IMG/VR virus record: IMGVR_UViG_3300037349_000158
Coordinates: 1 to 23,722 of that record
DNA from: a virus
Reading direction: 5' to 3' (one strand)
Length of the DNA: 23,722 bases
In this document: positions 1 to 18,240 of the stretch, piece after piece
How the letters are laid out: each line of letters begins with the position of its first letter
Numbering within the stretch: position 1 is the first letter of the stretch
Program-made: the position numbers and the translations under genes
Notes under the pieces: model-generated
What the model was told of the DNA's origin: nothing
Databases searched by the model: none
What the model saw: the letters and a program-made list of their open reading frames with translations, nothing else

Positions 1-152
1 CTCTGTCGCCGGTCGCTGAGGCCGCACCTCTGTAGCCGGTCGCTGAGGCCGCACCGCTGTGGCCGGTCGCTGAGGCCGCACCGCTGTGGCCGGTCGCTGA
101 GGCCGCACCGCTGTGGCCGGTCGCTGAGGCCGCACCTCTGTCGCCGGTCGCT
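1..152. repeat. 27-bp tandem repeat inside the DUF7666-type gene
   Basis: Five full 27-bp units begin at 1, 28, 55, 82 and 109, with a partial sixth at 136-152. Copies differ almost only at two codons, so the DNA repeat codes a 9-residue protein repeat with two variable positions. The array continues to the window edge and may be longer. The units are directly adjacent with no spacers, so this is not a CRISPR array. Confidence 0.95.
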
Positions 153-493
153 CTTTCACCTTCCGGTTTGGCGCGCTTGATCGTGTATTCGACAGCGGCC
201 TGAATCAGGCCAGCCAGTGTAATTGATGCCTTGATCTTCAAAGTGCTGGATGCGACTTTGCTATCATCGCTTTTCTTGTCCAGCTTTCCAGATTGCTCTA
301 CCTCCGCGAACTGGCTACCAGAAGGCGGATAGTAGTTAAAAACATCGAGCGGGTACTCGCAGGCGTGGAAGCCGCTATTGCAGGCCTCGACTTCGCCCTC
401 ATGCGTGTAAGTCTTGCCTACCTCGAACTGGTAACCGCTACACTTCATGTTCGCGTCGAAACCTTTGTACGATTGAATCACCTTGTCGCTCAT
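1..493 (-). CDS. DUF7666-type phage protein with 9-residue tandem repeats (C-terminus outside window)
   Basis: The ATG at 493 opens a frame that stays open to the window edge (164 codons visible). The N-terminal ~110 residues (starts [13 protein letters not shown], then a C[19 protein letters not shown] segment) resemble a phage and prophage domain I know as DUF7666; its function is unknown to me. From about residue 114 a 9-residue unit repeats, ATG-x-x-GAAS, coded by 27-bp DNA repeats at 1-152. The two x positions vary between copies: DR, HS, HS, HS, YR, DR in protein order. Such short periodic repeats could fold as a solenoid, which is inference. The start overlaps the upstream stop as ATGA, implying coupled translation. 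It is the last visible gene of the leftward operon. Confidence 0.85.
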
Positions 494-873
494 AAAAGAT
501 CCTCATTGCCTGTCACTATAACGCGAAAAACTTTGTCGCCGGGCTGCGGTGCGGGTGGCGCAGGAAGCAGGTCGCCAACCGTAATCGCCGGCAAGACTTC
601 AATCACGACTCCGGTCGCTGTATCTGCGAACATGTTCACGGGTGCCAGCAGCTCGGCGCCATTCTCCGCTGCCTCGGCGTGCCGCATCAATGTGGCGGCG
701 TGGTAAGCCGGTCCGTTCTCCCATCCGGCTTCGCGAGATGCCGTCATCTGCCGCTCCGCCGCCCACCGATCCCGGATAGCCTCAAACTCGCCCGTATGCA
801 CCGCGCACATATGTGTCCAGCGCGTCGGCGTGGCCGTACATCCGCAGGGAAATTTCTGCTCACCGCGCGACAT
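490..873 (-). CDS. Hypothetical phage protein, Cys/His-containing N-terminus
   Basis: 127 aa from the ATG at 873. I prefer this start over the ATG at 894 because GAGG lies about 8 nt upstream of 873, while 894 has no ribosome-binding site. The N-terminus holds a C-G-C pair and a later C/H pair (PCGCTATP...HMCAVH) that could bind a metal. The middle is an Ala/Glu-rich helix and the C-terminus is Pro-rich, ending in DLL. The stop overlaps the DUF7666-type start as ATGA. No function recognised; it belongs to the operon segment downstream of the promoter at 1870-1902. Confidence 0.75.
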
Positions 874-1078
874 AGGGGTGATCCTCGAAGACATGCGCTG
901 ACAGTACGATGCAGCTCCGCCGCACCAGTGCGATCTGTTCGAGTCGCATGTGGCGAGCCGCGATCTCAGCGCTCGGGTAGAACTGCGCGCTCTTCATCTC
1001 CTTCACGCCGCTCTCGCCTTGCGTTCCGTAGCGAATGGAGAAGTTGTAGGGGTTTCCCGTTGTCGGGAGGGCGCTCAT
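860..1078 (-). CDS. Small hypothetical phage protein (72 aa)
   Basis: The frame is open further upstream, but the ATG at 1078 overlaps the preceding stop as ATGA, the dominant junction type in this operon, so I place the start there. The product begins MSALPTTGNPYNFSIRYG and ends HPYVAR. There is no clear domain, signal peptide or membrane segment. The stop lies inside the next gene, with a 14-nt overlap. Function unknown. Confidence 0.65.
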   Translation of the reverse strand: MSALPTTGNPYNFSIRYGTQGESGVKEMKSAQFYPSAEIAARHMRLEQIALVRRSCIVLSAHVFEDHPYVAR

Positions 1079-1428
1079 GGTTGCGCCGCTTCCATTGTGT
1101 TGTAGGCATTGGCAAAGGCGATTGCTCTTGCGCGCATGAACTCGGTCCAAGCCACTTTTTCAGCCGTACTGGGCTCACACTCGTACTTGTACAGCGCTCG
1201 CGAGGCGCGGCTGTATTTGGCCCGCGCTGGCGCCATAGCGCGGTCATACTCGGCCCCAGCCGAATCTGACAGCAGATTCCCGGCGGCCCAACAAAACTCA
1301 AACTCAGTCGCGACGCGGGCGCAAAGCTCCGGCGTTACGTCTACAGACTCGCCAAACTTGCTGCGGAACAAATCAACCTGCGACTGACAAGCGTTTTTGT
1401 CGATCAGTTGTGAGATGTACAGCTTCAC
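1075..1428 (-). CDS. Hypothetical phage protein (117 aa), GTG start
   Basis: The start is the GTG at 1428, which overlaps the upstream stop as GTGA; a G-rich stretch upstream can serve as ribosome-binding site. The product begins MKLYISQLIDKNACQSQVDL. The pattern NACxxQVxLF-x-FG-x-V-x-VT is one I recognise from small phage proteins of unknown function. The remainder is Ala/Tyr/Arg-rich helix, including an EYDRAMAPARAKYSRA stretch. A role cannot be assigned; it lies in the accessory cluster behind the promoter at 1870-1902. Confidence 0.75.
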   Translation of the reverse strand: MKLYISQLIDKNACQSQVDLFRSKFGESVDVTPELCARVATEFEFCWAAGNLLSDSAGAEYDRAMAPARAKYSRASRALYKYECEPSTAEKVAWTEFMRARAIAFANAYNTMEAAQP

Positions 1429-1835
1429 GATTGCACCCCCGCCTTGGCGAGTGCGGCGCGGCAATGCAAAAGAGTCGCCGGTACCGCGTCGCTGCAATTG
1501 ATCGCTAGGAACTCCGTAGCGCGGCGCAATGCGGCCAGCAGTTCCGGCGCCGCGGCGATCAGGCGGGCGTTAGCCTCTTTGGCCGCGTGCTCATCGATGC
1601 GCCGCTGCGCGTGCGAGACTAGGTAATAGTGCAGGTCGCTGTAGCTGATGCGGTCGCCACCAAAGTACCAGTTAGCGCGGCCGTTGCTTGTGAGTTTCAC
1701 ATACACGCGCTTGGCCACATCCTGAAAATAAGAGCCCGCACTTAGCACGATACCGGCGCGCGCCTCGTGATCCAGCGCCACAAGGAAGCGGCTGACGATG
1801 GCGCGGGGTGATTCGTTTGCGATGTGGTTGCTCAT
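1425..1835 (-). CDS. Hypothetical phage protein with ANARLIAAAPELLAAL motif
   Basis: 136 aa. Two ATGs lie six bases apart; the second (1835) has GGAG seven bases upstream, whereas the first is too close, so 1835 is the likely start. The segment EANARLIAAAPELLAALRRA is widespread in small phage proteins of unknown function. The N-terminal half contains aromatic-rich stretches (NWYFGGDRISYSDLHYYL). It is the first gene behind the leftward promoter at 1870-1902, with a leader of about 30 nt, and its stop overlaps the next start as GTGA. Confidence 0.8.
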   Translation of the reverse strand: MSNHIANESPRAIVSRFLVALDHEARAGIVLSAGSYFQDVAKRVYVKLTSNGRANWYFGGDRISYSDLHYYLVSHAQRRIDEHAAKEANARLIAAAPELLAALRRATEFLAINCSDAVPATLLHCRAALAKAGVQS

Positions 1836-1866: not shown

Positions 1867-1913
1867 TGACTATAGGATAGGACATTCCGTCCGGAGAGTC
1901 AACAACTATTTTC
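1867..1913 (-). promoter_or_regulatory. Leftward sigma70-type promoter with embedded dyad operator (site 1)
   Basis: On the minus strand TTGACT (1902-1897) and TATCCT (1879-1874) are separated by 17 nt. A tract reading GAAAATAGTTG lies just upstream of the -35 and may act as an UP element. The spacer holds the dyad GGAC-N5-GTCC (1880-1892), placed so that a bound protein would block polymerase. Over 1877-1913, 32 of 37 positions match the promoter at 18204-18240. The promoter serves the 1425-1835 gene and those beyond it. Confidence 0.8.
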
Positions 1914-3550: not shown

Positions 3551-4264
3551 TCATAGCCGCTCTCCGTTGCCGATCTGGATCTTGCGTGACTCGGTCGCCC
3601 GAATCACCTCACAAATCACCTCATCCGCGTGATGCGTCGGATGGTAGTTCGTCGGGGTCAACCCAAGGAAGTAGCAGCAACGCCAGCACACGGGGCAGTC
3701 AGCGCGCTCGCTCGCGGGACGGCGCAGCATCTTCTCGATCTCGTGATCAATCGGCGCCAGCTCGCCATCATCCTTGTTGCGAGTCGGTGAATGATACACC
3801 GGCCGATCCTCTGGCATCAAGTCACGGATGCGCCGGAGCTTGCGCACCGAGGCCTTCACGGCCCCTGTAGTGACGCCCAGCTCCTGCGCTATGTCCTTGA
3901 TGTGCTCGCCGCTCTCGAGGCGCGCGACCAGCGCTCGTTCAGGATCCGTAAGACCTTCAAGCAATCGCTGTCGCTCAGCGTCGCGTTCGACATCATCATG
4001 CGCAACCAGTTCGGCGAGCCGCTCCGTGGAGACTTGCCCGGGCACCTCGCGATACTCACGACGCGCTTCGCGCATGCGATCCGTAAACCATGATTCAAGT
4101 GAGGTGGTAGCGGCATCGAAGCTCTCCCGTTGCTCCCAGCATTTCAGTATCGTCTCGGCGATCACATCCTCGCGATCGGCGCGCGAGAGCCAGCGCAGAT
4201 AGCGCTGTCCGCGCTTGGATACGCGCGCGAGCTGGATCACGAATTGCTCGACAGCTGTCGTCAA
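3551..4264 (-). CDS. Sigma-70-family-like transcription factor with Cys/His-rich tail
   Basis: 237 aa from a TTG at 4264 that overlaps the previous stop as TTGA, with GGGAG 11 nt upstream. Residues ~10-70 fit sigma region 2 (ADREDVIAETILKCWEQRESFD...ESWFTDRMREARREYRE). Residues ~103-147 fit sigma region 4, with a helix-turn-helix (HIKDIAQELGVTTGAVKASV). The C-terminal ~50 residues carry CPVCWRCC, then H208, H211, H212 and C218, a likely zinc-binding module not usual for small sigma factors. Such a protein could redirect host RNA polymerase to phage promoters; a related regulator without sigma activity is the alternative. It sits mid-operon. Confidence 0.75.
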   Translation of the reverse strand: MTTAVEQFVIQLARVSKRGQRYLRWLSRADREDVIAETILKCWEQRESFDAATTSLESWFTDRMREARREYREVPGQVSTERLAELVAHDDVERDAERQRLLEGLTDPERALVARLESGEHIKDIAQELGVTTGAVKASVRKLRRIRDLMPEDRPVYHSPTRNKDDGELAPIDHEIEKMLRRPASERADCPVCWRCCYFLGLTPTNYHPTHHADEVICEVIRATESRKIQIGNGERL

Positions 4265-4479: not shown

Positions 4480-4787
4480 TTGATCACCTTCTGATCGATG
4501 TTAGCCCTAGAGCGTAGCAGGAAGCAACACATCTGGGCGTACTCGTTCTCACCGAACGGGACGTTGCCGCCGGACAGGATGCGCGTGTAGCGCATCATCT
4601 GACTAATACAATTCTCCCATTCCTCGTTGCGAATCATCTCGTTACGCGCAAACTTGACTAATTCGTCAAGGTCCGTCGCACCCTGAATGTTGTGCTTGCC
4701 CATGTCGAAGCCGTGGAGCTTGCAGATGGTTCGCAGAAGTTTGGAGAGCGCATCGCCTTCCCCGGGGGTGTGGATTTCAAGTGTCAT
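4476..4787 (-). CDS. Hypothetical phage protein (103 aa)
   Basis: The open frame extends further upstream, but the ATG at 4787 lies inside the end of the preceding gene (11-nt overlap) and opens a more sensible protein, MTLEIHTPGEGDALSKLLRT. The sequence is predicted alpha-helical, with a DLDELVKFARNEMIRNEEWENCISQ stretch given here only by its ends (D and Q). No recognisable catalytic motif. Function unknown. Confidence 0.65.
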   Translation of the reverse strand: MTLEIHTPGEGDALSKLLRTICKLHGFDMGKHNIQGATDLDELVKFARNEMIRNEEWENCISQMMRYTRILSGGNVPFGENEYAQMCCFLLRSRANIDQKVIK

Positions 4788-4926
4788 GTATGCCCATCTC
4801 CGGCATTGGCAGGCGGTGCAGCGTCGCAGGGCTGATACCGATCTCCGGGGCCAGCTTGCGCATCGTCCACCGCTCCATCGCCATGAAGTACCGCAGCGCC
4901 GCGCCAAGGTTGGTTTCAGCCTTCAT
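4777..4926 (-). CDS. Short XRE/Cro-like helix-turn-helix protein (49 aa)
   Basis: The ATG at 4926 overlaps the previous stop as ATGA and has AGGAG upstream, so I prefer it to the longer frame. The product begins MKAETNLGAALRYFMAMERW and continues TMRKLAPEIGISPATLHRLP, a textbook helix-turn-helix of the Xre/Cro type. It ends soon after the recognition helix, shorter than typical Cro-like proteins (about 60-70 aa), so it may be a minimal DNA-binding protein or a truncated one. It is the only obvious small HTH protein in the window and so a candidate regulator of the dyad operators, which is inference. Confidence 0.65.
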   Translation of the reverse strand: MKAETNLGAALRYFMAMERWTMRKLAPEIGISPATLHRLPMPEMGIHDT

Positions 4927-6589: not shown

Positions 6590-6978
6590 GGCAGATCCCC
6601 GAGCGATACCTTGAGCCCAGCCAGCGCGTTGGGCAGATGCGAGGGCGGTACGAGTTTTGTCTCGCCCGGAACATAGACCCTGAACTTGTCGTGCGCTATC
6701 AGCAGATAGCTCGGGACACGATAGGCATTCGCGAGCTTCACATCCGCATCGCTGAAGTAATCAGCGTATTCGAGGCGCAGATGCGTGTGGAAAAGCGCCA
6801 CCAGCTTATAGCCTTCAGGCGGATTGATGTTGAAGCGGGTGCGAAACGCTTCACCTTCGGTCTGATTAGTACAGATCAGATTGCCGGCCGCGTCGCTGGC
6901 AATGATGCCGGCGTGCTCGTGGGCATCGTGCGGGAACGCGCTCAGGCACAGCAGCGCGAGAGTAGCTAGTGGGCTCAT
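6586..6978 (-). CDS. JAMM-like (DUF4329-type) protein with putative signal peptide
   Basis: 130 aa. The motif FHTHLRLEYADYFSDAD (residues 63-79) gives HxH, then S and D at 76 and 79. This is the JAMM/MPN zinc metalloprotease signature, and the surrounding pattern (HTH...FSxxDxxxA...YLL...VYVPG) resembles DUF4329. The N-terminus MSPLATLALLCLSAFPHDAH looks like a signal peptide, though without a positive charge after the Met. The substrate is unknown. The start overlaps the primase stop as ATGA. Presence of the metal ligands suggests an active hydrolase; a binding-only domain is the alternative. Confidence 0.65.
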   Translation of the reverse strand: MSPLATLALLCLSAFPHDAHEHAGIIASDAAGNLICTNQTEGEAFRTRFNINPPEGYKLVALFHTHLRLEYADYFSDADVKLANAYRVPSYLLIAHDKFRVYVPGETKLVPPSHLPNALAGLKVSLGDLP

Positions 6979-9641
6979 AGTAAATCTCCATTCTCAGTTT
7001 CAAAAGTTACGCCACCATCTTCATCCGGGTTCACCATCAGTCCGCGAATGCCGCGCTGAGTTTTCCATCGGCCATCGATCTTCGTTCGCTTCTCCTCAAG
7101 TATCGCGCTCGGCACTACGCGTGTCAACTCGCCCGTAAAGCGGTTAAGACTGAGGGCGTGGTAGCCCGCCTGCTTGCACCATATGGCGTAGGCTGGGTAG
7201 ATCCCGTTCGAGCCGCTGTGCGCGCTCCAGTACTCGCGGCCAGTCATGCAGCACTCGGCTACAAACTGCTTCACGCGATCCTGTTCGTTCTGATAATTCT
7301 CGCGCGCCTCAATCACAGATGCGGGCATGTGCAGCCCGGTCTCGTACCACATCTTGGCGCCACGCACGAGCCACGCGAAGATGCCTTCTCGCTCGGCGCG
7401 CAGTATCGGCTCCAGATCAGGATCGATCAGACGCGTTGCTTCGCGCTTGTCGATCTGCGCTTGCGTGCCGTACTTGTGCGTGTACCAGAGCAGCACGAGC
7501 CGGCGCCAGATACCGAAGTCGGCTCCTTTGACCACTGGCTTGTGATTGGTCAGGAGCTGGAGCTTGAATGTGGGAGTGAAGTTAAAGAAGTCACGGTGCA
7601 TATAGCGCGCGCTCAGCTCGTCCTCGCCGCTCGCGTGCTTTAGAAATCCTTCCCGTAGAACTGCTCCGTCGTCAGATTCCTGACTGACCACGAGCCGTCG
7701 CCCAAGTAGATCAGCGATCTCCGTAGGGTGTCGCTCAGATCCACTTGTGAAAAGTCCCGGAGCAGCTGTATGCACATAAGATCCAAGCACAGACTTGAGT
7801 GAACGTATGAGGGTTCCCTTGCCATTTGCTCCGTCACCGATGTGGAGGACAATTTTCTGTTCTCTGGTCTCCCCAGTAATACAGTAGCCCAGCCAACGCT
7901 GTAGAAAGGCGGCTCTCTCGTCATCGAGTATCTCCGTTAAAAAACGTTCGAACCGGGGGCACTCGGCGTTCGCGTTGTAGCTCACCGGGGCGCAGTGGGT
8001 TAGAAAATCGTCGGCGCAATGCGGCTTCAAGACGCAAGTGCGCAAATTCAAGGTACCGCTCTCGCAATTGATCAGCTCCGGGTGGGTATCGAGCTTCGCC
8101 GCATCCAAGGTCACGAGCTTGCGCACCATCTCCAGCGCCTTCTGTTGCACCGTGGCCATTTCGCATTGCTTTGTCCATTTCTCCAGTGCCTCCATCTTCT
8201 CAAGCGTTGATGTGATCTCTTGCCAGTTCGGCACAACAGCAAGCCTGTTCGTGCTCACCTGATCGCGACGTGCGGCATTCTGATAGCCCTCGATCAGCGT
8301 TTTCTGTTCCGCTGCGAGCGCTGCCATGAGCGACTCGAATTTCTCGCGCGCTGCGCGTGCCTCAGCACCGACAATCGCATTGAGCTGCGCGACGCATCTA
8401 GCAGCCTCGCCCTCTCCGAGTTCCCAGTGTCGTCCGTTATACCAATAGAATCGTCCGCCAATGGCTCTAAGGCGAGACTGGAATCTTGCGCTGATTCGAG
8501 TGGCGTTCGCCTGATCGGTGCAAAGGTGCTGAGCGGGAGGGATTGCATCAGCGCTAATAGCAGCTGCAGCCTCAGGGAGGAGTGAGAAGGCTTTGTCATG
8601 CTTGGCATTAATCTCCGCATTAATCTCCGCATTAATCTCCGCATAAACATCAAAGTCACTCAGCGCAGCCACCGTGTCCCAGCCACGCCTGCGCGCCATC
8701 GTGAAGATGTGCCGATAGTCGGTGCGAGTGGGGCTATTGGCGTGCGCGGCCCACCAATCGGTTGGCGCATCGGGCGTATAGTTCGGGCAGCACATTGACC
8801 ATTCATTGAAGAGGTTCGCGCCATGCGCCGGGCCGAGGCTCAGCAGCGCATAGCCCACCTCAGACCATACATCGTTGCTGCCTCCAGCCTCGCGCATCGC
8901 CGGCCACATCAGCGCATCGTGCAGCCTGATGCGATCGTTCTCGCTAATCTCCGTGAGCAACGCCTCATTAGTCTCTGTACGGACTGTTTGCTCTTTAGTC
9001 CCTTGCGGGACTAGCGCATATTGCTGCAGGGTATCCCATAGCTGGTCTATGGGCTCAATGCCATACGCTGCGGGGATCGAGCGCAGCCAACGTCTGGGCG
9101 CCCACTGATAGCGCACGCCGCTCGGGTGCATGCCCGCGGCTACGAACTGCTGGCCATCGCCGAGCAGCTCGATGCGGCCATGGGCTGTCTCTATGATGCG
9201 CTTGGCAATGGGTGCATCAAGCGTGAATGGCATCAGGAACTTCAGGCTATTGGGGCGCACGCGACGCGGTGCATCGTCTCCAAAGCACTCATAGAGCTGC
9301 GCGAGAATATCCTCGCTCATGTCGAAGTCAGCCACGTCCACATCAATGGCACGCACGCGACTCGTGCGTATGCAGAATCCTAATCGAGGGTCTTGCGACC
9401 AGCGCTGCCAGAGTGAGGGATCAATAGTACGTAACTGCCACTGACCAACGCCAATGCCGGCGCCAGATGCGGTATAGTGGCTAGGAATCTTGCCGAACTT
9501 CTTTATCTTGCTGTCTGCTGATGGCTTGACGCTCGGGTCATTGACCACGGGCAACATATCGGCTGCCAGACCCAGCGTCGTGGCAAAGTGCGCCCATTCG
9601 GCCTTTGTAGCGCCGCGCGGCTGGCTCACAGCCACATCCAT
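6975..9641 (-). CDS. Bifunctional primase-polymerase / SF3 (D5-type) helicase
   Basis: 888 aa. Residues ~1-190 form a PrimPol domain: RAIDVDVAD carries the metal-binding D100 and D102, and GDGQQFVAAGMHPSGVRYQW matches the third conserved region with H172. A linker around 334-346 contains INAE repeats. Residues ~390-560 are D5_N-like (GGRFYWYNGRHWELGEGEA). The SF3 helicase has Walker A GDGANGKGT (602-610), Walker B/B' around LGRRLVVSQESDDGAVLREG, and motif C LQLLTNHKP. The C-terminus ~785-870 looks like a winged-helix region. It should synthesise primers and unwind DNA at the phage origin. Start: ATG at 9641, with a 16-nt overlap and a weak ribosome-binding site. It is next to the probable origin at 9945-10590. 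Confidence 0.95.
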   Translation of the reverse strand: MDVAVSQPRGATKAEWAHFATTLGLAADMLPVVNDPSVKPSADSKIKKFGKIPSHYTASGAGIGVGQWQLRTIDPSLWQRWSQDPRLGFCIRTSRVRAIDVDVADFDMSEDILAQLYECFGDDAPRRVRPNSLKFLMPFTLDAPIAKRIIETAHGRIELLGDGQQFVAAGMHPSGVRYQWAPRRWLRSIPAAYGIEPIDQLWDTLQQYALVPQGTKEQTVRTETNEALLTEISENDRIRLHDALMWPAMREAGGSNDVWSEVGYALLSLGPAHGANLFNEWSMCCPNYTPDAPTDWWAAHANSPTRTDYRHIFTMARRRGWDTVAALSDFDVYAEINAEINAEINAKHDKAFSLLPEAAAAISADAIPPAQHLCTDQANATRISARFQSRLRAIGGRFYWYNGRHWELGEGEAARCVAQLNAIVGAEARAAREKFESLMAALAAEQKTLIEGYQNAARRDQVSTNRLAVVPNWQEITSTLEKMEALEKWTKQCEMATVQQKALEMVRKLVTLDAAKLDTHPELINCESGTLNLRTCVLKPHCADDFLTHCAPVSYNANAECPRFERFLTEILDDERAAFLQRWLGYCITGETREQKIVLHIGDGANGKGTLIRSLKSVLGSYVHTAAPGLFTSGSERHPTEIADLLGRRLVVSQESDDGAVLREGFLKHASGEDELSARYMHRDFFNFTPTFKLQLLTNHKPVVKGADFGIWRRLVLLWYTHKYGTQAQIDKREATRLIDPDLEPILRAEREGIFAWLVRGAKMWYETGLHMPASVIEARENYQNEQDRVKQFVAECCMTGREYWSAHSGSNGIYPAYAIWCKQAGYHALSLNRFTGELTRVVPSAILEEKRTKIDGRWKTQRGIRGLMVNPDEDGGVTFETENGDLL
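8605..8644. repeat. 12-bp in-frame tandem repeat in primase-helicase linker
   Basis: GCATTAATCTCC repeats three times (8605-8640) with a fourth partial copy. On the minus strand this codes the four-residue unit INAE, giving AEINAEINAEINAK in the linker between the PrimPol and helicase modules. Such in-frame repeats expand or contract by slippage and alter linker length without breaking the frame. Confidence 0.9.
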
Positions 9642-9832
9642 GTCGGTGGGCTAGGGAAGCGTGCGAGGTAGTCCGCAATGGCTTGGCGGTCACTGCGGTT
9701 CGCGTGGTGCAAGGTGCCAGAGCGGCGCGAGTTGGCGCTACGCCGGGCTCTGTCGCATTCACGGCTATCGCTCATGCGCTTGATGAACTGCTCTTTGGTC
9801 GCGCGCTGCGCTGGTGTGATTGATCGGGGCAA
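9626..9832 (-). CDS. Small phage protein upstream of primase (68 aa, TTG start)
   Basis: TTG at 9832 preceded by GAGG with 8-nt spacing. The product (MPRSITPAQRATKEQFIKRM... ending RFPSPPTWMWL) is basic and Ser/Arg-rich. The pattern EQFIKRMxxSRxxxxARRxANxxRxGTLH...DRQAIADYLARFP is one I recall from small conserved phage proteins near replication genes, function unknown. It overlaps the primase start by 16 nt and is the first gene behind the promoter at 9866-9894, so it is probably co-expressed with the primase. Confidence 0.7.
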   Translation of the reverse strand: MPRSITPAQRATKEQFIKRMSDSRECDRARRSANSRRSGTLHHANRSDRQAIADYLARFPSPPTWMWL

Positions 9833-10075: not shown

Positions 10076-10144
10076 TACGCCTTATTGGCTCCTAGATACG
10101 CCTGATTGGCTCCTAGATACGCCTGATTGGCTCCTAGATACGCC
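10076..10144. repeat. 21-bp direct repeats, three full copies
   Basis: Units begin at 10076, 10097 and 10118 with the shared core GATTGGCTCCTAGATACGCC (first copy has TA for GA), followed by a 6-nt remnant at 10139. Exact 21-bp spacing equals two DNA turns, typical of binding sites for one protein on one face of the helix. The array lies beside the 27-bp inverted repeat in the intergenic region. Confidence 0.9.
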
Positions 10145-10494: not shown

Positions 10495-10590
10495 GCCCGG
10501 CGTATCGGTGATTGAGGCCCGGCGTATCGGTGATTTGGCCCGGCGTATCGGTGATTTGGCCCGGCGTATCGGTGATTGAGGCCCGTCGTA
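10495..10590. repeat. Iteron-like direct repeats, four copies
   Basis: The core GCCCGGCGTATCGGTGATT occurs at 10495, 10517, 10538 and 10559, with a degenerate fifth start at 10581. Spacing is 22, 21, 21 and 22 bp, two helical turns. Between copies only the two or three bases after the core vary. Frames crossing it on both strands only translate the repeat. The arrangement matches iterons bound by replication initiators; a multi-site operator is the alternative. Confidence 0.9.
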
Positions 10591-16393: not shown

Positions 16394-17771
16394 TTCGCCA
16401 GAGGTTCGCAATCTTTATCCAAAGCACATACTTTTCCTCGCGGCTGGCGCGCAGTACAAAGAACGTGCGTTCATAGCCGCCAACCGGGTCGGTAAGACGG
16501 TAGCCGGCGGATGCGAGATGACCTACCACTTGACCGGAGAATATCCGGATTGGTGGACGGGACGACGATTCAATGATCCAGTCGATTGCTGGGCGGCCGG
16601 CAAGATTTCGAAGACGGTTCGCGACATTATTCAAGCGCTCCTGCTGGGCAAGCCCGGCAGTGCTGAAGCGCTGGGTACCGGACTAATTCCGAAAGACAAG
16701 ATCATCAAGACCACGATCAAGCACGGACTCGCCGACGCGGTTGAGACCGTGTACGTGAGGCACATCAGCGGCGGCGTTTCAACGCTGCAGTTCAAGTCAT
16801 ACGATCAGGGGCGCGATGCCTACGAGGGCACGTCGCAGCACGTGATCTGGCTTGACGAAGAGCCGCCACAGGACATCTACGCGGAGTGCTTGACGCGCAC
16901 CGCGACGACGAAGGGTATCATCTACGTCACGACCACTCCAATGGAAGGTCTGACGGATTTGATCCTGCAGTTCCTGCCGGCGCTGCGTCCGCGCACGATC
17001 GACGATGAAGTCGACACCGATAAAGACGGCAAGTCAGTTACGAAGTTCGCGATTCAGGCGGGCTGGGATGACGTCCCGCACTTGGATGAGAACGAGAAGG
17101 CAGCGCTCCTTGCATCGTACCCGCCGTGGCAGCGCGACGCGCGTACGCGCGGTATCCCGATGCTGGGAAGCGGCGCGATCTATCAGGTCGCAGAGAGTGA
17201 CATCACGTGCGCGCCGTTCGACATCCCCAAGCACTGGGCGAAGTCATTCGGAATGGACGTGGGCTGGAACAAAACCGCGGCACTCTGGATCGCGCATGAC
17301 CGGGATACCGGCAATGCGTTTGTATACGATGAGTACTATCGCGGCCAGCAGGAGCCTTCGGTTCACTGCATCGCGATCGACAGACGCGGCAAGTGGATTC
17401 CCGGAGCGATCGATCCCGCAGCGCGCGGCCGTTCACAGGTTGACGGCCAGAAGCTGCTCGAGATGTACGTCGATCTTGGGCTCGATATTGAGAAGGCCGA
17501 CAATGCCCGCGAGGCCGGCATCTACGCGGTGTGGGAATTGCTGAGCCAAGGGAAGCTGAAGATTTTCACTTCATGCACCAACACCATCAGCGAGTACCGA
17601 TTGTATCGGCGCAACGAGAAGGGTGAGGTGGTGAAGAGCAATGACCACTTGATGGACGCGTTGCGGTACAACGTGATGAGCGGAATGCCGCGGGGCAAGA
17701 CGGAACCTTCCGCTCGCCCCGACGGCATGCCGTGGTTTCACTGGTCGCCAGAGACTGTCTGGTCAGGCTGA
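16305..17771 (+). CDS. terL: Terminase large subunit (packaging ATPase/nuclease)
   Basis: 488 aa from the ATG at 16305, which I choose because MTRADKLKLLRTLQERDRR matches a typical TerL N-terminus; the frame starts at 16224, and either way it overlaps the small terminase. Numbering from 16305: Walker A ANRVGKT (59-65), Walker B VIWLDEE (180-186), motif III TTTP (209-212). The RNase H-like nuclease has GMDVGW (Asp 318), GAIDP (Asp 371) and NDHLMDALRY (Asp 447 and 451). It hydrolyses ATP to pump DNA into the procapsid and cuts it. Length agrees with P22 gp2 (499 aa). No ribosome-binding site is obvious at either start. Confidence 0.95.
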   Translation: MTRADKLKLLRTLQERDRRNKQNQIATFFSSPEVRNLYPKHILFLAAGAQYKERAFIAANRVGKTVAGGCEMTYHLTGEYPDWWTGRRFNDPVDCWAAGKISKTVRDIIQALLLGKPGSAEALGTGLIPKDKIIKTTIKHGLADAVETVYVRHISGGVSTLQFKSYDQGRDAYEGTSQHVIWLDEEPPQDIYAECLTRTATTKGIIYVTTTPMEGLTDLILQFLPALRPRTIDDEVDTDKDGKSVTKFAIQAGWDDVPHLDENEKAALLASYPPWQRDARTRGIPMLGSGAIYQVAESDITCAPFDIPKHWAKSFGMDVGWNKTAALWIAHDRDTGNAFVYDEYYRGQQEPSVHCIAIDRRGKWIPGAIDPAARGRSQVDGQKLLEMYVDLGLDIEKADNAREAGIYAVWELLSQGKLKIFTSCTNTISEYRLYRRNEKGEVVKSNDHLMDALRYNVMSGMPRGKTEPSARPDGMPWFHWSPETVWSG

Positions 17772-18166
17772 TACTTCGGCTCGTGGCCTGATCTGCCGGC
17801 AACCCAGCTAGGATTGCTAGCCCGTCTCCACAACGCTTTGGTCAAGGTGCCCCAGAGGATTCTCTGGAAACGCTCCCCATGGGGGCGCCGACTGCGCAGC
17901 CACTTACCATAAGCGGTCATCCTATCGATGTGGTGGCTAAGCTCGTGCACTAGCAGGATGTACTGATCGCGGCGGTTTGATTTCGTGCCGACCCGCAGCG
18001 TTATAAAGTTGCCATGGTGGTAGTAACAGCCGCCAACCGCGGCCCCGTACCGCGACATTTTCACTACATAGATACGTGGCGTCTTCATCCGCTCGCCGCG
18101 GCGCTTGATCAGCCGGCGCGCGATTGCTTCGGCCACTTTCGATCGTTGCGATGCATGTAATTTCAC
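17738..18166 (-). CDS. SprT-like zinc metalloprotease, antisense within the head operon
   Basis: The open frame reaches 18229 via a TTG that is actually the -35 box of its promoter, and the ATG at 18202 lies in the -10, so neither can be used. GTG at 18166 has GGAG nine bases upstream and follows the predicted start of transcription by about 27 nt; this gives 142 aa. HELSHHID (from residue 74) is the HExxH zinc site, and about 17 residues later RPHGERF provides the HG pair of SprT-like proteases. No signal peptide; a cytosolic DNA-associated protease role fits the family. Its tail overlaps the end of terL by 34 nt on the opposite strand. Confidence 0.75.
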   Translation of the reverse strand: MKLHASQRSKVAEAIARRLIKRRGERMKTPRIYVVKMSRYGAAVGGCYYHHGNFITLRVGTKSNRRDQYILLVHELSHHIDRMTAYGKWLRSRRPHGERFQRILWGTLTKALWRRASNPSWVAGRSGHEPKYQPDQTVSGDQ

Positions 18167-18193: not shown

Positions 18194-18240
18194 CAAATAC
18201 ATTATAGGACATTCCGTCCTAGAAGTCAAGAACTATTTTC
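18194..18240 (-). promoter_or_regulatory. Leftward sigma70 promoter with embedded dyad operator (site 2)
   Basis: TTGACT (18229-18224), 17 nt, consensus TATAAT (18206-18201). The spacer contains a perfect dyad TAGGAC-ATTCC-GTCCTA (18205-18221), overlapping the -10. The upstream AT tract AAAATAGTT resembles an UP element. Sequence 18204-18240 matches the promoter at 1877-1913 at 32 of 37 positions. It drives the SprT-like gene alone and ends 15 nt before the next rightward gene. Confidence 0.9.

Follow-up and report, generated by a model that had tools for sequence, protein, structure and literature searches.

Two distant phage promoters share a spacer dyad that probably places accessory genes under a phage repressor

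Two leftward promoters lying 16.3 kb apart on the minus strand of one viral sequence carry the same dyad between their -35 and -10 elements, and a phage-repressor regulon of accessory genes, with two accessory gene sets probably gated, is the best reading of this arrangement. The sequence analyzed, which we call the window, is virus record IMGVR_UViG_3300037349_000158 (23,722 bases, ends undefined), whose plus strand carries the terL, portal, and coat genes and whose minus strand carries a gene series headed by a primase. We consider it fairly likely, judging from sequence comparisons, that both sites are phage promoters with spacer operators for an XRE-type repressor of a 434-cI-like family, here called A1, gating the accessory units behind them.

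The principle of a phage repressor acting at dispersed promoters is already known from P1 and L5. The C1 repressor of P1 acts on widely dispersed operators, 22 asymmetric 17-bp sites (PMC8546580), and in mycobacteriophages L5 and D29 the sites, about 24 asymmetric ones of 13 bp, are for the most part distant from promoters (PMC5712189). The window resembles both in the dispersal of its operators, having the same operator at two distant promoters where at least two in one phage genome mark a regulon of the P1 C1 or L5 type. It differs from P1 in that its two dyads are symmetric and the repressor gene is not on the fragment, and from L5/D29 in that both sites lie inside promoters. A literature search found no relevant description of the window's operator motifs and no earlier description of the A1 family or its operator set.

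Two Promoters With One Spacer Dyad

Promoter site 1 (1877 to 1913, minus strand; GAAAATAGTTGTTGACTCTCCGGACGGAATGTCCTATCCT as read on that strand) comprises the UP-like tract AAAATAGTT, a -35 TTGACT, a 17-nt spacer, and a -10 TATCCT ending at 1874, while site 2 (18204 to 18240, minus strand; GAAAATAGTTCTTGACTTCTAGGACGGAATGTCCTATAAT) has the same tract, -35, and spacer length and a -10 TATAAT ending at 18201; the 37-position coordinates take in only the first bases of each -10. Direct comparison bears out the original prediction that the two sites agree at 32 of 37 positions and in their 17-nt spacing, with the common pattern GAAAATAGTT[G/C]TTGACT-N4-GGACGGAATGTCC-TAT. The GGAC-N5-GTCC dyad that it placed inside the spacer is present at both sites, and site 2 is the fuller, as claimed (TAGGAC-N5-GTCCTA, 6-5-6, vs. 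CCGGAC-N5-GTCCTA, 4-5-4, at site 1). The predicted operators occupy 1880 to 1892 (GGACGGAATGTCC, read on the minus strand) and 18205 to 18221 (TAGGACGGAATGTCCTA). One of the five differences between the sites adjoins the -35 and four fall between the -35 and the dyad, leaving the -35, the dyad, and the start of the -10 identical. The DNA flanking the 37 bp is unrelated on either side, which excludes a long duplication.

The window contains two copies of GGACN5GTCC where 0.29 would be expected, and both are these sites; the full 37-mer pattern likewise occurs twice, against none in 100 shuffles. Dyad promoters of this type are rare in control phage DNA as well (0 in 0.92 Mb and 4 in 0.99 Mb), and on these three counts we reject a chance origin of the pair. 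Within the 23.7-kb fragment, a scan for the dyad, suggested beforehand as a check, reveals no random scatter, with two occurrences only.

The Upstream Tract Is a Generic Promoter Element

The AAAATAGTT tract that had been counted as part of the shared match is present at both sites but lies outside the operator and proves to be generic. At least 120 stretches match AAAATAGTTNTTGAC-N18-TAT in a scan of viral contigs, several contigs holding two to four copies (about 1e-5 expected), and among the matches listed most come from AT-rich contigs and lack a GC dyad in the spacer, one being at 62% GC. In its fuller form, AAAATAGTT[CG]TTGAC-N17-TATAAT, the element is widespread in phages, mainly AT-rich ones, with up to four copies in 10-14 kb; a 62% GC phage (L267) carries it twice. 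By its sequence and distribution, then, AAAATAGTT[C/G]TTGAC is a generic strong phage sigma70 promoter element, which makes the tract uninformative on the regulator or operator and leaves the dyad as the informative part. The idea that AAAATAGTT is a half-operator derived from an A1 O1 site (GGACAAATAGTCCTTGAC) was dropped, because AAAATAGTT[CG]TTGAC-N18-TAT is common, occurs in many copies per contig, and is usually free of a dyad. Sites 1 and 2 are the only promoters of this chassis in the window, and site 2 is the best sigma70 match there.

The spread of this chassis, usually with no dyad in its spacer, and the position of both copies ahead of mobile accessory genes would fit ordinary strong phage promoters whose dyads are unbound remnants of a copied promoter cassette. 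We regard such an origin as improbable, since the copies are unrelated beyond 37 bp, the changes within those 37 bp avoid the dyad, and dyad-bearing promoters are as scarce in control phage DNA as noted above.

Genes Behind the Promoters

Site 1 lies in a 70-bp gap within a leftward gene series. The first gene behind it (1425 to 1835, minus strand) encodes a 136-aa protein of phrog_1273 (unknown function), with AGGAG 7 nt before the ATG at 1835, and the rest of the leftward cluster (2 to 1428, minus strand) consists of ORFs 1075-1428, 860-1078, and 490-894 and the DUF7666 gene at 2-493, which matches PF24703 (3e-37) and runs off the contig. The prediction that site 1 drives a DUF7666-type cluster therefore holds for the leftward series downstream, but the series begins with the gene at 1425-1835, and the DUF7666 gene is only the fifth. 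At the contig end, a 27-bp array of 5.6 copies (3-152) codes for a tail of collagen-like repeats on the DUF7666 protein.

Behind site 2 lies a gene for a putative SprT-like zinc metalloprotease (17738 to 18166, minus strand; HELSH motif), antisense between terL and portal. Its 142-aa ORF has a weak match to PF10263 (9.9e-5); the listed start falls inside the promoter, and behind it the GTG at 18166 is the first start to have a ribosome-binding site. The terL-portal gap measures 1363 bp in the window vs. a mid-value of about 707 bp in 64 relatives, and all 64 terL relatives lack a SprT-like homolog or such a promoter in this gap. HExxH frames seen in the gap of relatives are out-of-frame readings and not SprT, and SprT relatives were found neither in viral contigs nor in INPHARED. 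The long gap and the absence from the 64 relatives support an inserted accessory gene, in agreement with the original view of an antisense insertion in the head operon.

Elsewhere on the minus strand (3551-4264), a 237-aa protein has weak matches to sigma70 regions 2 and 4 and may be a phage sigma-like factor. It was set aside as the shared regulator because both promoters are plain sigma70 promoters, distinct from the ECF type.

Site 2 Scores Like an Operator of the 434-cI-Like A1 Family

A scan with TTGACNNNNNGGACGNNNTGTCCTA led to phages in which a small HTH gene lies close to tandem dyads (TAGGACAAATAGTCCTTGAC-N4-AGGACNNATTGTCCTA), and the A1 profile was built from an alignment of eight of these HTH proteins. 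With this profile, matches were obtained to the solved structure of the 434 repressor (E 7e-7) and to PHROG transcriptional repressors. Searches by protein alone found A1 in Bradyrhizobium, a Hyphomicrobiales MAG, Chelativorans, and Pseudorhodoplanes genomes and in 26 viral stretches. Across loci L107-L135, the small 434-cI-like repressors that make up A1 come with a stereotyped arrangement of operators in Hyphomicrobiales prophages: two dyads 23-24 bp apart at a facing promoter and one or two before the repressor gene.

The link between A1 and its operator rests on gene-dyad linkage across all members. Dyads are present at 29/29 A1 gene-linked loci, 21 of which are independent of the operator-based seeds (one pair among the 21 being the same prophage), and number 98 sites in 168 kb of A1 loci vs. 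34 in 923 kb of portal-relative loci (0.58 vs. 0.037 per kb). In 27 of the 29 loci one dyad (O1) overlaps the -35 from upstream and a second (O2) lies in the spacer, with GGAC starting 10 nt (23/27) or 11 nt (4/27) from the first T of TTGAC; both window sites have the 10-nt register of A1. By the A1 spacer-dyad pattern AGGACN5GTCCT, site 2 is complete (AGGAC) and site 1 has CGGAC on one side. A position weight matrix from 26 A1 O2 sites (leave-one-out mean 22.6, SD 3.6, minimum 12.6) scores site 2 at 25.0, reached by 0.02% of random GGACN5GTCC sequences, and site 1 at 14.7, reached by 2.3% and at the low end of A1 operators; as a predicted operator, site 1 is weak. Site 2 contains AGGACGGAATGTCCTA, the exact sequence of the PR operator (O2) of L009/L111.

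The window thus shares AGGACN5GTCCT in the spacer, in the same register, with A1 immunity regions such as those of Bradyrhizobium sp. Arg816 (L107) and Chelativorans xinjiangense (L109). Unlike the window, these regions have an O1 overlapping the -35 and additional operators by the repressor gene, and distant sites are usually absent. No dyad is present 23-24 bp upstream at either window site, where O1 would overlap the -35 and the sequence is AAAATAGTT[CG]TTGAC. The window, a fragment, has no A1 homolog (QD[KR]YKQYE helix; best E 0.41).

The proposal of a shared repressor, perhaps phage-encoded, is well supported as to a repressor of phage type, in that dyad and register match two independent HTH families (A1 and H, the latter described below) and site 2 scores like an A1 operator, but neither family is encoded in the window. 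A truncated HTH ORF at 4777-4926 is unlikely to be the repressor, as no more than half of an HTH is present (best PHROGs E 0.0045; E 0.0076 for HTH_3).

A Second HTH Family Uses the Same Promoter Layout

A scan for the exact geometry TTGACN5GGACN5GTCCTATNNT returned 29 stretches with 27 distinct sites, 13 of which have TA before GGAC, a feature not imposed by the pattern (P about 2e-9). A1 is present in one of the 28 exact-geometry contigs (G037, discussed below), and several contigs have a different HTH gene, H (phrog_20491), just downstream. In two integrase-bearing contigs without A1 (L147 and L151), the gene for a conserved 148-aa "MTTIAYRSG" protein is preceded by a promoter of the window type.

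Searching with the H protein retrieved three named phages (Bordetella phage vB_BaM-IFTN8, Serratia phage vB_SspM_BZS1, and Paraburkholderia phage IPK) and 80 viral loci. The named phages, found by protein alone, have TTGAC-N3-TAGNNC-N5-GNNCTA-type promoters, one with imperfect half-sites. Over this collection (L330-L409, L327-L329), phrog_20491, of unknown function in PHROGs, is a small XRE regulator with a spacer-dyad promoter in most loci; in Serratia phage BZS1 its gene lies between two OafA-like acyltransferase genes. The occurrence of a spacer dyad with both H and A1 indicates that the layout is general among small phage HTH regulators, with half-sites varying by phage.

The window operators might accordingly answer to a phrog_20491-type XRE protein that autoregulates a single TAGNNC-N5-GNNCTA spacer-dyad promoter. 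TTGAC followed by a 6-5-6 dyad (one mismatch allowed) lies upstream of H in 62 of 78 scorable loci vs. 5 of 390 shuffles, 55 of the 62 at offset 8, which is the offset of site 2, and H promoters, like those of the window, have a single operator without O1. Site 2 matches TTGAC-N3-TAGNNC-N5-GNNCTA exactly (site 1 with two mismatches), TAGGAC half-sites occur in five H loci, and the layout recurs in the three phages identified by protein alone. The inner bases speak against H: TAGGAC-type H sites read GGACC..GGTCC, whereas the window reads GGACG..TGTCC, as do many A1 operators. Half-sites also differ between H phages and the window, each H gene has one autoregulatory promoter, and a second such promoter nearby is seen in 1 of 80 H loci, a doubtful case. 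The window has no H homolog (best E 0.77) and so no H gene within about 350 bp downstream. We rate regulation by an H protein as unlikely. By operator linkage, A1 and H are candidate families for the HTH protein expected to bind the dyad, with no homolog of either in the window.

An Uncultured Phage With Dispersed Sites Is the Closest Analogue

The closest analogue of the window layout is G037 (IMGVR_UViG_3300047310_000188), an uncultured podovirus-like phage that encodes an A1 repressor at 946-1164. Its spacer-dyad promoters at 2340, 4523, and 5143 (the third imperfect) are dispersed, single-operator, and all leftward, its terL and portal-like genes lie on the opposite strand, and O1 is missing, as in the window. 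The two share the promoter chassis (AAAATAGTTGTTGAC in one G037 copy), the spacer dyad, its register, the dispersed leftward promoters, and the terL/portal strand; the window differs in lacking an A1 gene, and the left arm of G037 has no detectable homology to it. Autoregulation is suggested in G037 by the position of the A1 gene behind its 2340 promoter; in parallel, the site 1 operon of the window is also leftward and leaves the contig.

Dispersal of such sites is nevertheless unusual in A1 and H phages as surveyed by sequence, and G037 is the exception: among the A1 phages examined, dyads are otherwise almost confined to the immunity region. The accessory-gene regulon originally proposed is therefore backed by gene context and by one sampled precedent, and is set against most A1 and H phages, where sites occur only beside the repressor gene.

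Repressor Model and Other Sources of Regulation

According to the A1 model, each site would be a strong sigma70 promoter (AAAATAGTT, TTGAC, 17 nt, TAT..T) whose spacer is a full operator, and the cognate repressor would be a small XRE-type phage protein, the 434-cI-like A1 family being its likeliest source. When a repressor dimer occupies a dyad that fills the -35/-10 spacer, RNA polymerase should be excluded, and we infer that repressor dimers would block it here. With repressor present, both accessory units, the SprT-like gene and the cluster whose last gene is DUF7666, would be silent; they would be switched on soon after infection or at induction. The sequence missing from the record probably holds the repressor gene, which plausibly follows site 1 in the operon that leaves the contig on the left, as in G037.

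Against the A1 model stand the lack of A1, H, and O1 in the window, the single A1 among 28 exact-geometry contigs, the near confinement of dyads to the immunity region in other A1 phages, and the weakness of site 1. A search of the window and of eight long portal relatives turned up no tyrosine integrase, which makes lysogeny no more than a possibility and also counts against the model.

The same absences of repressor and integrase would suit a phage with operators only, its repressor supplied by another resident prophage, whose lysogeny the genes would sense or be silenced by, or else lost, as in D29. D29, which has no working repressor, retains dispersed L5-type sites, and the immunity of temperate relatives acts on it (PMC5712189); the promoter occurs without A1 in contigs G054, G058, G060, and G045-G047. 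The window and most such contigs are fragments, however, or may hold other repressors (G054 has three HTH_3 genes), and we consider this explanation rather doubtful. Its more specific form, in which the immunity repressor of another prophage in the cell controls the accessory promoters, seems improbable; if true, the SprT-like protease and the other genes would be on only in cells lacking or inducing that prophage.

Host repressors such as LexA typically use spacer operators too, and a host transcription factor could in principle bind the dyad. We judge this very improbable: the operator promoter occurs in 0/397 Hyphomicrobiales genomes, vs. 8 for a reversed control pattern, making a host regulon in that order unlikely. 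The coat protein of the window shares only 27-38% identity with prophage proteins of Hyphomicrobiales.

Where an operator can be read from sequence, as for the A1-type dyad, the targets of a phage repressor can be listed without experiments. Two barely described small HTH families (A1 and phrog_20491) are tied here to operators in dozens of phages, and the window suggests a way for a phage's repressor to gain control of accessory genes that have inserted into structural operons.

Other Features of the Window

Two overlapping minus-strand frames, 9626-9832 and 6975-9641, form one primase-like protein (..ARFP / PTDMDVAVSQP..), whose start may be broken by a frameshift or an assembly error. Between the divergent gene halves lie two non-coding 21-bp tandem repeat arrays (10076-10144 and 10495-10590), which are iteron-like and possibly an origin.
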